Shown here: positions 14,999-40,198 of the stretch, one piece after another
Numbering within the stretch: the stretch's first letter is position 1
How the letters are laid out: every line of letters starts with the position of its first letter
NCBI GenBank assembly: GCA_958496175.1
Contig: OY292274.1
Coordinates: forward strand, 27,071,482 to 27,135,481
Reading direction: 5' to 3'
Length of the DNA stretch: 64,000 nucleotides
From: Sisyra terminalis
Taxonomy: Eukaryota > Arthropoda > Insecta > Neuroptera > Sisyridae
The notes under the pieces: generated by a model
The model's database searches: none
Told to the model about the DNA's origin: nothing
What the model saw: the letters and a program-made list of their open reading frames with translations, nothing else
Program-made: the position numbers and the translations under genes

Positions 14999-15213
14999 TA
15001 TCTATACATAATATTTTATAGCTACAATCTACTTCTATATGGTAAAGGTTTTTGATAAGTATTTTTCGAACATGTTATTAATCTGTTAATTCGGTTAAAC
15101 GGTTAATTCGTATAATATGTAATATACATTTTGTATAAGTAACCAAATGTGTAAACATATAGTATCTGTGTATAAATAACCAATTTAACCTTTTATTTGA
15201 AACCCAGTAACAC

Positions 15214-34688: not shown

Positions 34689-37176
34689 GACGACTCTCGA
34701 GCCTTGATTCTTGTAAAATAAAAATGAATAAATTTCTTTATTCTTACAAACAGAATTAATAGCGTACGGTGAGGCCCTATATACTCTTGCAAACAAAAAG
34801 TTACTTCCAATAAATTATATGGTCATACGCTCTTTTTTATAACAAAGGTATAAAATGTTTGAAATATGAATCAAGTGTTTGAAACTATTTTTTTACCGTC
34901 AATAATTAGAATGGACATATAACAGTTCTATGCAGATAATAATTTATCGAGAAAATTTTAATTTTAACATTAGCAATACAGAAATTTAACTTCCTAGAGT
35001 TGTGGGAATTTGTAACATCATCTTTATGGATTATAGAGGTATGAGAAACATATAGTTGATTCATTTTTTAAACTAAAAAAAATTGTAAATAATAGATTTT
35101 AAGCTACTTATAATTGTTATAATTCTGAAAAGTATTCAACGTCTGCTTAAAAAAAATCAATAAATGTAAAATATATTTATTGTTTATGCTTCATTTAAAA
35201 AGTATAAATCTATATTCAAATATAAAGTATAAGTTGAATATAATTTGTTTCGTTGGCTACCTGAAAAATAAAATTAAAATCTCAATTGACTTCAACATTA
35301 ATATAGTACATGTAGAAGGACCTCGCCCAGTTTTACCAGCATAAACCACGTCATTCATCGTGCTCTAAACAATGAAATTACTTCACTTCCCGAATAACAG
35401 TCACTTCCGGTCCATTACCCATTATATTGTAGAATTTGTACCATTATGTATATATACACATTACCCCTTTCCATTCGCCTCACCGCCATTGCCTTCCTTA
35501 TTATTGGGCTCATAATACAATGGGTCCATGAATTAGTTTGCAACGACTGTAAAATCATCAACGATCATCAAACTATATAAAAAAGTAACGATCACTTCTA
35601 TCTTATAAATCAAGAGTGAATATAAATAGAAAAAATCAACTTGAATCAACAGCTGCTACAATGGTTTTATTTCAAAGGTGACTCTATCTTAGGATGATTT
35701 ACAAATAAATAATTTATAGTTTCTTCATCCTGCAATAATATATATGAAGAGTTTCAAGTTTTAAAAACAAAAATGCAACAACAAAGCCATTCGAGTGCTA
35801 CTAATTGTTTTTAAGTCATACGATTTGTACACAAATTCCATTTGAACAAATAACTCAAAAGCATTCCAATTCTTTAAATCTTGCAACTCAACAAATGTTG
35901 GAAAAATCACGCGAAACTCTTCTCTTTACGAATCTACATCTTTTTTTTTCAAAATAATAATTAAATACTACACAACGTTATTTATTTTATTTTATTATAT
36001 ATAATTAACAATCTACTCTTAGCACGCGTTGTTAATTAGAGAAAACCAGAAACAAATTTTTTGCTGCTTAATTACGTGCATTACTAGACTTTTTCCTGAT
36101 TTTTATTTTAGATAAACATTTTTTTACGAATCTAATGAATAAAAAAGGAACTTTAAAGTCTAATTATGAAAAAATTCCAACAATGAAATACTCCAATTGA
36201 ATCAGTCATATGAAAATGCACTCCGATCGGTCTGTTTAAAAATGCATTTTTACTGTAAACTTATTGGCATATATTAATCAAAAAATCTTTTATTTAATGA
36301 CTGTACAACTAGACATAGAAATTGTTTATTAAATTAAATTACTAAGCAGTTGTTTAATTAGCGGTAGCTATTTAGAATTAATTACAGTCCGGTGATCTGT
36401 GAGTGGAAGGAAAATATATCAATGTTAGTATATATCGCCTAAAATATAGCTTTAGTCGATGAGACCAAGTGGAAAATTTCTCCTAAGATCGCGCCAAAGA
36501 AATGGACCATAAACTTGAAAAGCTTGTAATTACTGTATTTTAATGTTTAAATGGAAGTAATTTTAATTATGTAAAATTTAATATTGTAATTTTCCTTATG
36601 GAGAAGTACGACTGCATTTATTTACGGTACTAGTCTCGTGCGAACCCCCACAACTTGGAAGTATTTAATTTGTTTTTCTTGTCTTATCTTGGATTTCAAA
36701 TGTCGTTATTTCACTTTTTATTACTTCTTCTATGTACATATTTATTATAATATCGCCGTTCATTTAAATAATCTTAAATACAGTGTGAAACGCTAGAGAT
36801 TTCAGTGGCGTTCTTGACTTTTTTTTCATTTTTATTTTGAAATTAAACTTCCTAAAACTTAAACTATATAGGATACTAAGAGCACCTATCAAATATTTTG
36901 ACGAATAAAACTAACGTCTCAATATAATAGGTACATCAACAATAAGTAGTAATGCATCAACAGAGGTTACTTTTAGCAAAGTTAGGATAATATTTAGAAT
37001 TGTTTATGTTAAATGTTCATACATAGCCAACTGTATCATTTCCTCGAATAACTAGCTTTTTCCCTTAATAAACTAAACTAAAGTTTTTAACAATCAGTTC
37101 CTCATAAATTGAAGATAATTGAGGATGCATCTTTTTCTTCCATTTTCCTTCATGTGAAGATCTTTCTTAATTTGGA
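34689..37176. other. noncoding flank left of the MULE
   Basis: No gene recognised. 35290-35530 is somewhat GC-richer but has no reading frame of note. Confidence 0.5.
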
Positions 37177-37185
37177 AAAAAAGAT
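37177..37185. repeat. MULE target-site duplication, left
   Basis: The 9-mer AAAAAAGAT directly abuts the element's first base (G37186) and is repeated exactly at 40190-40198. A 9-bp duplication is characteristic of Mutator-like transposition. Confidence 0.85.
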
Positions 37186-37638
37186 GGATGTGGCTATTTA
37201 TACATACAGTATGTATACGCAATTGGCTATTTATACATACAGTATGTATACGCAATTGGCTATTTATACATACAGTATGTATACGCAATTGGCTATTTAT
37301 ACATACAGTATGTATACGCAATTGGCTATTTATACATACAGTATGTATACGCAATTGGCTATTTATACATACAGTATGTATACGCAATTGGCTATTTATA
37401 CATACAGTATGTATACGCAATTGGCTATTTATACATACAGTATGTATACGCAATTGGCTATTTATACATACAGTATGTATACGCAATTGGCTATTTATAC
37501 ATACAGTATGTATACGCAATTGGCTATTTATACATACAGTATGTATACGCAATTGGCTATTTATACATACAGTATGTATACGCAATTGGCTATTTATACA
37601 TACAGTATGTATAAGAAATTGGCTATTTATAGTTACGT
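37186..37638 (+). repeat. left TIR: 13-copy array of a 33-bp unit
   Basis: After GGATGT, the unit beginning GGCTATTTATACATACAG and ending GTATACGCAATT repeats 13 times from 37192, then a partial copy ends in TATAGTTACGT. The first 12 units look identical; the 13th ends ATAAGAAATT instead of ATACGCAATT. Each unit contains the perfect 19-bp palindrome TATACATACAGTATGTATA. Because 33 is divisible by 3, several frames stay open across the array on both strands (up to 200 codons). These are repeat artefacts, not genes. Confidence 0.95.
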
Positions 37639-37736
37639 ATAACGCAGATAGAAAAGTAGAATATTGATTGTGACCATCTATGAATGCCATCCTCAACTAA
37701 AATGTTTGCCTCCACTAAATTGTGAATGACTTATTC

Positions 37737-37744
37737 TATAAAAG
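37737..37744 (+). promoter_or_regulatory. possible TATA box of the transposase
   Basis: TATAAAAG lies 67 bp before the ATG at 37811, inside the element and outside the repeat array. CTAACCTCACTTTTAG directly before the ATG also looks like a branch point and 3' splice acceptor, so the leader may instead be spliced. Confidence 0.35.
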
Positions 37745-37810
37745 TGTTGCAAGGTATTAGCTGATTTTTTTAAATTAATTATATTTTTAATATTCTAACC
37801 TCACTTTTAG

Positions 37811-39199
37811 ATGACAGAACAAATGTCCGTTAATGACAACAATGTTAGTGAACATACTTTAAATGTTGGTCAACATTTTAATGATTATGAACAGTTATCA
37901 AAGACTGTTAATGTATTTTGTAAAGAGCATTATCATCCATTTGTTATTAGAACACGGTCTCAGAAACAAGTGCTGTACAAATGTTGTCATGGTATTAAGC
38001 AAAATTCAAAATGCCTGGGAAAACGTCCGAATCAACATTACTACTACAAGAATTGTAAAGCTCAAATTAATTTTTATAAAAGCAAAAATGAAAAATGGAA
38101 ATTAACAAAACTATTACTAAATCACAATCATACCGTTGGCAAAGAAGAATATAGTAATTACGGCAAAGCCAAAATTATGAATGAAAATGATTACGAAACA
38201 GCAACAGATTTAATCTTGTCTAGCGCCAAAGATGGAATGGTTGCTGCAGTTTTAAGTAAAAAAAGTGGGAAACAGTTTATAAGAAAGGATATACAAAATT
38301 TTCGAAACAAACTTTTTCCTTCATGTACCGAAGTGGACCAAAATCATTTAATGGAATTCTTAGCGGAAATCGAAGAAAATGGTGGTATGTACGCTATACA
38401 AAAAGATGCAGAAGAAGAAGTAGAATCATTATTTGTAGCCTCTTCGGCGATGGTTCTAAATTATAATAAATCTCAGTGTCCAGTGATACAAATAGATGTT
38501 TCCTTTGGATTTAATGTCGAAAATTATAAAGTTTTGGGATTTTGCTACTATTCTAGCATAACCGACAAATCAGAATTTGCAGCTATAGGATTTATTGCTA
38601 AAGAAACATATTCCGCATTCATACATTGTATGAATGAATTTAAAAAAATTTGTAAGACCCACTCATCCGTTTTTTTAATTGACAAAGATTTCATCGAAAT
38701 AAAAGCTATCAGAGACATTTTTTCTAGTGCAACCGTTTTACTTTGTAAATTTCATGTCATTAAATACATTAAAAGGCTAGTTTCTACTGCCTACAATAAA
38801 CAAATTGATGAAAAAAACAAAATATTGGATGCGTTCAAGAAATGTTTATATGCTCAATCATATAAAGAATACGAAGAGCAGAAAAAGAAATTCCTGGACA
38901 TTTGCAAGTCTGTAAAAGTTTTTGCAGGAACAAAAGATAAATACGTGACTCTTGAAGAGCAATTTCTTAAAAATTGGGACAGCTGTAAAGAAATGTGGGT
39001 ACATTATTTTAGAAAACATTTGCCACTAATGGGAGATACGACAACAAACAGAATTGAACGATCATTTTGGACTCTTAAGCAATACATACAAACTAAATAT
39101 CATAGTTTGCCGACAATTTATTTATGTATTAAAGAGCTTATAGACTTTATTGATTCAAGAATAAAGAATAAATTAGCCAAAAATAAAAGTAATGGCTAA
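37811..39199 (+). CDS. MULE transposase, N-terminal and catalytic part
   Basis: The 462-codon frame encodes a Mutator-superfamily cut-and-paste transposase, which acts in the nucleus on the element's inverted termini. Residues 56-107 form a FAR1/WRKY-GCM1-type zinc finger (KCC at 57-59, C82, HNH at 105-107) expected to bind DNA. The RNase-H-like DDE core follows: D229 in QIDVSFG, the LIDKD motif at 289-293, C312 and H315 of the family CxxH motif (LLCKFH), and E416 in NRIERSFW. The start is the first ATG, immediately after TTTTAG. The frame ends at TAA 39197-39199, eight bases inside the next frame. The family normally continues into a SWIM finger, which here is in the second frame, so this is the front part of one broken or frameshifted gene. 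Confidence 0.92.
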   Translation: MTEQMSVNDNNVSEHTLNVGQHFNDYEQLSKTVNVFCKEHYHPFVIRTRSQKQVLYKCCHGIKQNSKCLGKRPNQHYYYKNCKAQINFYKSKNEKWKLTKLLLNHNHTVGKEEYSNYGKAKIMNENDYETATDLILSSAKDGMVAAVLSKKSGKQFIRKDIQNFRNKLFPSCTEVDQNHLMEFLAEIEENGGMYAIQKDAEEEVESLFVASSAMVLNYNKSQCPVIQIDVSFGFNVENYKVLGFCYYSSITDKSEFAAIGFIAKETYSAFIHCMNEFKKICKTHSSVFLIDKDFIEIKAIRDIFSSATVLLCKFHVIKYIKRLVSTAYNKQIDEKNKILDAFKKCLYAQSYKEYEEQKKKFLDICKSVKVFAGTKDKYVTLEEQFLKNWDSCKEMWVHYFRKHLPLMGDTTTNRIERSFWTLKQYIQTKYHSLPTIYLCIKELIDFIDSRIKNKLAKNKSNG

Positions 39200-39203
39200 T
39201 GGC
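39190..39203 (+). repeat. 7-bp tandem duplication that splits the transposase
   Basis: TAATGGC occurs twice back to back (39190-39196 and 39197-39203). The second copy supplies the in-frame TAA and moves the downstream SWIM-coding part by one frame. With one copy, the reading frame would run straight through. Confidence 0.85.
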
Positions 39204-39881
39204 ATTGAGGAAAATCTTGAGACTGGAATATCGAAGATTTATAATACGTCGCTGGAAGCATGTTCATGTACATTTTGGAACTCTTTCAGTGCACCATGTA
39301 GGCATATTTTTATGTTAAGAAAATACAATAACTTAGATATTTTTTCAAAAACATGTTTCCATCCAAGATACATTACTTCAGTTGGAAATACAGAAAGTAT
39401 TATGAATATGGATATCGATGATGAAGACACGAATGACGTAGACATTGAAGATATAGACAAGGATGAATTCGATGGTTGTCAAAAAGTATTATCGGATCGA
39501 GAAAAATTCAATACAGCACTGACAGTAACAAAAAATATCGCAGATATTTTATCAAATTATGGAACTACAACCTTTAACAAATATATGAACGAACTAAAAT
39601 TAATTGAAAAAAATGCTAGAAATGGGGTTTCTCTGTTTGAGAATGAGTATAGTGAACCTACAATTAGTTCAATAGAATTTGAGACAAGTAACTTAGTTGA
39701 AGCTGGAAGTTGCCAGGATAGCTTAGTTGGTACTGAAAGTCAGAACGAATCCGATACAAATCATCAATCAAATGAAAACCTAAAATTTAAAACAAAAATT
39801 AAGTCTAAAGGACGTCCGAAGAGAAAAACTAAACAGATTCAGTTTTACAAGAAGCAAATTAAAACACGAAATAAAAAATAA
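39192..39881 (+). CDS. MULE transposase, SWIM-finger C-terminal part
   Basis: This 229-codon frame overlaps the end of the catalytic frame by 8 bp, shifted by +1. Residues 24-38 hold a SWIM zinc finger (C24-x-C26, C36-x-H38, in ACSCTFWNSFSAPCRHIF), the domain that follows the DDE core in most MULE transposases. An acidic stretch (about residues 70-95, many Asp and Glu) follows. The tail is strongly basic with an AT-hook-like KSKGRPKRK centred on residues 207-209, plausible for AT-rich DNA binding or nuclear import. The ATG at 39192 is created by the TAATGGC duplication and is probably not a natural start. Alone the fragment lacks catalytic residues. Confidence 0.85.
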   Translation: MANGIEENLETGISKIYNTSLEACSCTFWNSFSAPCRHIFMLRKYNNLDIFSKTCFHPRYITSVGNTESIMNMDIDDEDTNDVDIEDIDKDEFDGCQKVLSDREKFNTALTVTKNIADILSNYGTTTFNKYMNELKLIEKNARNGVSLFENEYSEPTISSIEFETSNLVEAGSCQDSLVGTESQNESDTNHQSNENLKFKTKIKSKGRPKRKTKQIQFYKKQIKTRNKK

Positions 39882-40000
39882 AATAAATACCCAAGTATAT
39901 TGTAACAATAAACAATAAATAAAACAATATTTTTCTATAATTATGTAGTTTTTATTAAAATATTAATATCAATAAACTTTTTGGTTAGTTAGTACATTAG

Positions 40001-40189
40001 ACGTAACTATAAATAATCGATTTCTTATACATATTGTATGTATAAATAGCCAATTGCGTATACATACTGTATGTATAAATAGCCAATTTCTTATACATAC
40101 TGTATGTATAAATAGCCAATTGCGTATACATACTGTATGTATAAATAGCCAATTGCGTATACATACTGTATGTATAAATAGCCACATCC
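40001..40189 (-). repeat. right TIR: 5-copy array of the 33-bp unit
   Basis: Inverted relative to the left array. From the outer end, units 1, 2 and 4 carry the CGCAATT ending and units 3 and 5 the AGAAAT ending; unit 5 also has ACAATATG in place of ACAGTATG. The inner boundary is the same TATAGTTACGT as on the left. Both outer ends share CCACATCC/GGATGTGG. Confidence 0.92.
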
Positions 40190-40198
40190 AAAAAAGAT
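40190..40198. repeat. MULE target-site duplication, right
   Basis: AAAAAAGAT, identical to 37177-37185. Confidence 0.85.

Follow-up and report, generated by a model that had tools for sequence, protein, structure and literature searches.

We analysed a 64-kb stretch of the Sisyra terminalis genome (contig OY292274.1; C1:27071482-27135481), referred to here as the window, which contains a Mutator-like element (MULE) of 3004 bp at positions 37186-40189. The element starts with GGATGTGG, ends with CCACATCC and is flanked by a perfect 9-bp target site duplication (TSD), AAAAAAGAT, at 37177-37185 on the left and 40190-40198 on the right; both the duplication and the inverted ends were exactly as claimed in an initial annotation of this DNA. 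Each end has a terminal cap (GGATG at 37186-37190, forward strand, identical across eight high-identity genomic copies; CATCC at 40185-40189, reverse strand) and, inside it, an array of tandem 33-bp units. The 5' array (37191-37619, forward strand) consists of 13 head-to-tail units of TGGCTATTTATACATACAGTATGTATACGCAAT, of which 12 are identical and the innermost has two changes. The inverted 3' array (40020-40184, reverse strand) has five units, with 0, 0, 2, 0 and 3 differences from outer to inner, and the numbers and opposite orientation of the units first reported were confirmed exactly. Since the approximately 23 bp inside both arrays (37620-37642, forward strand, beginning TGGCTATTTATAGTTACGT; 39997-40019, reverse strand) also resemble one another, the terminal inverted repeat (TIR) is composite, comprising cap, array and inner domain. 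The TIRs measured 188 nt, with 95-96% complementarity. The 19-bp palindrome TATACATACWGTATGTATA, with up to three mismatches allowed, gave 18 matches in the window, all of them inside the element, against 0.07 expected from shuffles.

The gene between the arrays encodes a DDE transposase of MULE type that is broken in this copy. Its first open reading frame (ORF1; 462 aa, 37811-39199, forward strand) includes a FAR1-like region (about 37967-38137), a MULE/RNase H domain (about 38483-38764), the catalytic residues D229, D291 and E416 (at 38495, 38681 and 39056) and a CxxH at residues 312-315 (38744-38755). The D-D-E triad with CxxH between the second D and the E was present in all six aligned proteins, and its spacings here, 62 and 125, are inside the ranges given in PMC13359780. 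PF10551, the MULE DDE domain, was identified in ORF1 with an E-value of 4e-6 at a cut-off of 27.6 bits. P0001, a protein of 736 aa that shares 99% identity with ORF1 and covers both transposase frames of the window, marginally missed this cut-off at 27.4 bits; PF21056 exceeded its Pfam cut-off. A structure match to the bacterial ISCth4 transposase, which we take to belong to the IS256 family, had 16% identity and ran only from residue 172 onward, leaving the FAR1 and SWIM parts outside it. The SWIM-type motif, CxCx9CxH (about 39261-39305), lies in a second forward-strand frame (39177-39881, first ATG at 39192) that differs from the frame of ORF1. Relative to L015, a near-identical genomic copy with an intact frame, 140 bp are missing from the window copy, and the 8-bp microhomology AAAATAAA, which marks the deletion scar at 39180-39187 (forward strand), occurs at both breakpoints. 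As 140 is not divisible by three, the deletion both ends ORF1 prematurely and puts the SWIM part out of frame. The MULE identity proposed at the outset was therefore upheld, with its DDE core, CxxH and SWIM-type motif, and the FAR1-like finger was found at a score below the Pfam cut-off; the description of the element as complete does not fit the window copy.

Searches of the whole genome (376,648,809 bases in 11 contigs) with a two-unit array query returned at least 78 matches. Paired, high-identity arrays occurred at eight places, the window copy included, and all eight had GGATG...CATCC ends and perfect 9-bp TSDs (AAAAAAGAT, AAATATTTA, TATTAAAAA, AAAATATAA at two places, AAATAAATA, AATAGAAAA and TTAAAAGTA). 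These shared ends settled the element boundaries: those originally claimed are the true ones, and none of the eight showed ends elsewhere. The two copies with AAAATATAA were 99.1% identical over 6283 bp, a segmental duplication, and represent one insertion duplicated, leaving seven independent insertions. The TSDs of these seven had G or C at only 3 of 63 bases (P 2e-6 against a GC content of 28.3%). With the arrays excluded, the cores were, by segment, mostly 99.6-99.9% identical to that of L010; L011 had the lowest value, 99.1% over a segment of 1,022 bp, and L009 had an identical segment of 129 bp. An intact 736-aa frame was present in two of the eight copies, L013 and L015. The others were defective in different ways: L014 has one stop, L010 a frameshift, L011 and L012 a nested insertion, and L009 is a 1,158-bp deletion derivative, in addition to the 140-bp deletion of the window copy. 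The family has thus moved recently and left non-autonomous derivatives.

Variation among the eight copies lay chiefly in the number of outer units. Relative to the gene, the 5'/3' unit counts were 13/5 in the window copy, 3/5 in L009, 4/6 in L010, L011, L012 and L015, 6/5 in L013 and 4/7 in L014. The 5' count ranged from 3 to 13, or from 3 to 6 without the window copy, and the 3' count from 5 to 7. The pattern of the inner units was fixed at the 3' end of all eight copies and at the 5' end of seven. The exception was L013, whose 5' array has the variant order 0,0,0,2,0,2, resembling the 3' arrays, as though converted from the opposite end. Because the copies differ mainly in their outer units around a fixed inner pattern, the 13-unit array is an expansion in a single copy. 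Termini built as arrays are a real design of the family, and the count of 13 given in the initial annotation is an outlier.

The genome also contained much older members. A search with the transposase gave 34 matches, of which the young copies had 87-100% protein identity (87% and 93% came from L010, whose frame is shifted), and the older pieces, mostly with stops, had 33-56%. The older rows represented 17 loci; 16 were counted, L036 being left out as it had been taken up for its array. Near 13 of these 16 relics, within the 4.2-4.6 kb examined around each, there was a stretch matching the 33-bp unit at 73-96% identity. The same criterion was satisfied by 4 of 200 element-free pieces of the window, with the window's own array relic unmasked, and by none of 200 Markov sequences. 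In 11 of the 13 relics the closest unit lay 20-125 bp from the transposase piece; this distance exceeded 1 kb in L052 and L060, where the unit may have no connection with the relic. Six relics (L055, L056, L059, L064, L065 and L066) had unit stretches on both sides, the left one on the plus strand and the right one on the minus strand. Based on these associations the array is an old trait of the family in this genome, and the earlier suggestion that such termini mark a distinct lineage was right in part. Coding nucleotide identity of the relics was 72% (4486/6203) over 20 loci, four of them picked by array. It would be unsafe to claim that the arrays were better preserved than the coding DNA, as arrays were detected only above a similarity threshold.

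Among 24 diverged array loci, only L018, which is 650 bp long, combined good caps with a perfect TSD, TTATTTTTC. L030 is a 518-bp element whose TSD has a single mismatch. One-mismatch TSDs were also found for L017, only via an alternative left cap, and for L025, only with eight cap mismatches. The remaining loci had poorer end pairs, or none in six of them.

By structure the element belongs to the foldback class, having a composite TIR in which the number of tandem repeats varies between copies and ends, and its 9-bp TSDs, perfect in all eight high-identity copies, are within the 8-10 bp of MULEs. A FLYWCH finger, as in Phantom, was not found (E-values up to 1 in ORF1 and up to 0.1 in the six aligned A1 proteins), and the FAR1-like region stands in its place; group 20 of PMC6446971 permits none, FLYWCH or SWIM. 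A PHD finger, which Table 1 of PMC6446971 gives for Rehavkus, was not found in ORF1, ORF2, A1, P0008 or P0009. In a quick tree of ten rows, built without Phantom, MuDR or Hop references, the window protein joined P0001 and then P0002 from the caddisfly Arctopsyche grandis. Three protein searches found relatives of the lineage, none of them named Phantom, MuDR or Hop. The closest named proteins were a chimeric gene model of Chrysoperla carnea, whose first part matches at 277 of 281 residues and whose second at 113 of 118, and two caddisfly models, one with 48% identity across 94% of ORF1 and the other with 63% across 34%.

Together, these data make it likely that the element is a foldback-type insect MULE, a young copy of a family old in this genome, which the DDE transposase would move by cut-and-paste and whose arrays would serve as repeated binding sites. 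The autonomous form would be that encoding the 736-aa DDE transposase, with a FAR1-like DNA-binding region, RNase H core and SWIM finger. We infer that this enzyme excises the element and reinserts it by a 9-bp staggered cut, with a preference for A+T-rich targets. The 33-bp palindromic units would probably be bound by a dimer of the FAR1-like domain, and repetition of these predicted sites would give a short recognition sequence avidity and specificity. That the units are binding sites is suggested by analogy with Galileo, in which the sites of the THAP domain lie in tandem repeats (PMC3688188), and with the active Muta1, which has a cap and nine 12-bp repeats (PMC5225508). Outermost, near-identical units would be gained and lost through slippage or recombination, which could have given rise to the 13-unit array. 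The window copy, without a full transposase of its own, would be mobile only with enzyme supplied by an intact copy.

Several observations weigh against this model. The FAR1 and SWIM matches were under the Pfam cut-offs in ORF1, ORF2 and P0001. The hairpin of a single unit is modest (z -1.7), with 13 of 200 shuffles equally good. Across the 24 diverged array loci, which supplied 65 units, mismatch was 0.149 inside the palindrome (its centre left out) versus 0.242 outside. However, the difference was confined to G/C positions (0.20 inside, 0.37 outside), and A/T positions were no better kept inside (0.134) than outside (0.143). Compensatory double changes numbered six, against 6.2 in shuffles, that is, no excess over chance. 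The data therefore do not show that the palindrome itself is conserved, and this speaks for a different explanation, in which the arrays are by-products, expanded through slippage or gap repair at palindromes, and transposition needs no more than the cap and the outermost unit. The range of 3 to 13 units at one end fits this explanation as well, and the 12 identical units of the window copy indicate recent expansion. However, a useless array should have been lost in some active copies, whereas all eight young copies retain at least three units at each end and the unit is still found near 13 of 16 old relics; we consider by-product arrays unlikely, though worth weighing. We think it improbable that the arrays act mainly in expression or silencing, with the TATTTATA repeats as promoter or a fold-back read-through RNA feeding small RNAs. 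MULE TIRs can hold promoters and feed siRNAs (PMC6446971), and every unit has a TATA-like stretch, but the arrays stand in inverted orientation at both ends and are present also in L018, which at 0.65 kb is too short for the transposase gene; this arrangement indicates a role in mobility.

The origin of the family could also be read differently. The long, internally repetitive TIRs of Galileo (PMC3573991) would allow a foldback of the P superfamily in place of a MULE, an assignment contradicted by the domain scan, as no THAP domain was found in the Pfam scans, and we give it almost no credence. Recent arrival of the young family by horizontal transfer from another insect is a tentative proposal that we regard as doubtful. 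It would account for the near-identity of the Chrysoperla carnea copy, in a different genome, and for the gap between 56% and 87% protein identity among the genomic transposase matches. On the other hand, P0001 was the closest of the ten proteins tried for 19 of 20 relic loci, which gives the family the look of an old resident, and the host may be a close relative of Chrysoperla. More speculatively, and in our opinion slightly less probable still than horizontal transfer, the family may be a long-lived, distinct MULE lineage whose conserved, heritable core is the array at the ends instead of the transposase; the array would be a loading platform for multiple dimers, its unit number tuning the mobility of each copy. 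On this view the 33-bp palindromic unit has been retained all the way from the 99.8% identical copies to the relics, whose coding identity is about 72%.

FB/NOF of Drosophila has long TIRs containing internal tandem repeats, and systems of like design have been described in several animals. Muta1 and Muta5, MULEs of Aedes aegypti (PMC5225508), are about 3.2-3.5 kb long with 8-9 bp TSDs, and their TIRs consist of an 8-10 bp terminal motif and nine tandem repeats, the number of which varies in non-autonomous copies; Muta1 was termed a type 2 Foldback by its authors. The likeness is one of architecture: their repeats are 12-15 bp, compared with 33 bp here, and their transposases of 504-554 aa come from spliced exons, compared with a single 736-aa frame with FAR1-like and SWIM parts. 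The same report gives TIRs of more than 100 bp for 12 of 14 Aedes aegypti MULE families and subterminal tandem repeats of 9-15 bp for 10 of those 12. Tm1 of Meloidogyne (PMC3169594) similarly has a 9-bp TSD, MITE-like derivatives and a composite TIR, in which an outer motif and GGA are followed by tandem units that vary in number and then by an inner motif, but differs in its 14-bp unit, its asymmetric outer 7 bp and its Phantom-like, 496-aa FLYWCH-MULE transposase. Galileo of Drosophila shares long TIRs with internal tandem repeats (PMC3573991), in which binding sites have been shown (PMC3688188), and differs in its P-type transposase with a THAP domain (PMC3573991, PMC3688188). The foldback TIRs of Tetris from Drosophila virilis also have tandem repeats, with 8-10 bp TSDs, but the unit is 220 bp and the transposase is given as none known (PMC4079207).

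The architecture is therefore not new, as Muta1, Muta5 and Tm1 share the plan of a cap and tandem array with 8-9 bp duplications, and to call such termini unusual was an overstatement. What is new, as far as we searched, which was short of RepBase, Dfam and the supplement of PMC13359780, is the family, its 33-bp palindromic unit and its age. Neuroptera is absent from the 24 orders in Table 1 of that 2026 survey of 4268 arthropod genomes, a weak indication given that Araneae, named in its text, is also missing there; the words tandem and SWIM do not occur in the main text. The family bears on the question of why some DNA transposons have short-repeat arrays at their ends. One genome holds a graded natural series of near-identical copies that have 3, 4, 6 or 13 units at one and the same end and include two intact frames, together with short non-autonomous copies and old relics; with it, how unit number affects binding and mobility can be tested directly.

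Several protein models related to the transposase were composite. P0010 (Chrysoperla carnea LOC123296531) fuses the family transposase with another protein, which has a stretch resembling Endonuclease VII just below cut-off and looks like a Maverick-type polymerase; the model is likely an annotation chimera. In P0002 and P0007 of Arctopsyche grandis, gene models for a related transposase, the FAR1-like part is preceded by a zf-AD domain, through chimera or exon capture. P0017, a distant relative of 1458 aa with 21% identity, has MULE, ZSWIM and Ulp1-type protease domains and a weak PHD below cut-off. A viral or bacterial origin was considered and rejected: no exact match to a 26-base piece of the unit occurred in IMG/VR, and protein alignment gave no relative in IMG/VR or GTDB contigs.

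In the window there were no tRNA genes and no Rfam matches, and seven of its open reading frames had no Pfam match. As 33 is a multiple of three, no forward frame is closed by a stop within the 5' array, and one or more of the reverse frames are open too; the array gives rise to spurious open reading frames of 147-200 aa at 37091-37696. A degenerate two-unit relic of a related array (15123-15185, reverse strand) lies 22 kb from the element; it scored 51, compared with a mean of 28 and a maximum of 38 in 40 Markov sequences, and no partner array was found for it. L011 and L012 (C2:29.735 and 29.772 Mb) lie in a segmental duplication about 37 kb apart and represent one insertion, into which a further element of about 2.5 kb is nested. 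The frame of this nested element is 599 aa long (598 aa in L012), and its duplication, TTATAGAC, is 8 bp. The nested element is probably a hAT, with a Spin-doc zinc finger above cut-off and a hAT dimerisation region below it (E 0.005). At L017, a short related array pair (1600-2260) is centred in a larger inverted repeat. The flanks of its inner cap pair are inverted, not direct, 119 of 120 flanking bases being reverse complements, and a second cap further left gives a direct duplication with one mismatch.
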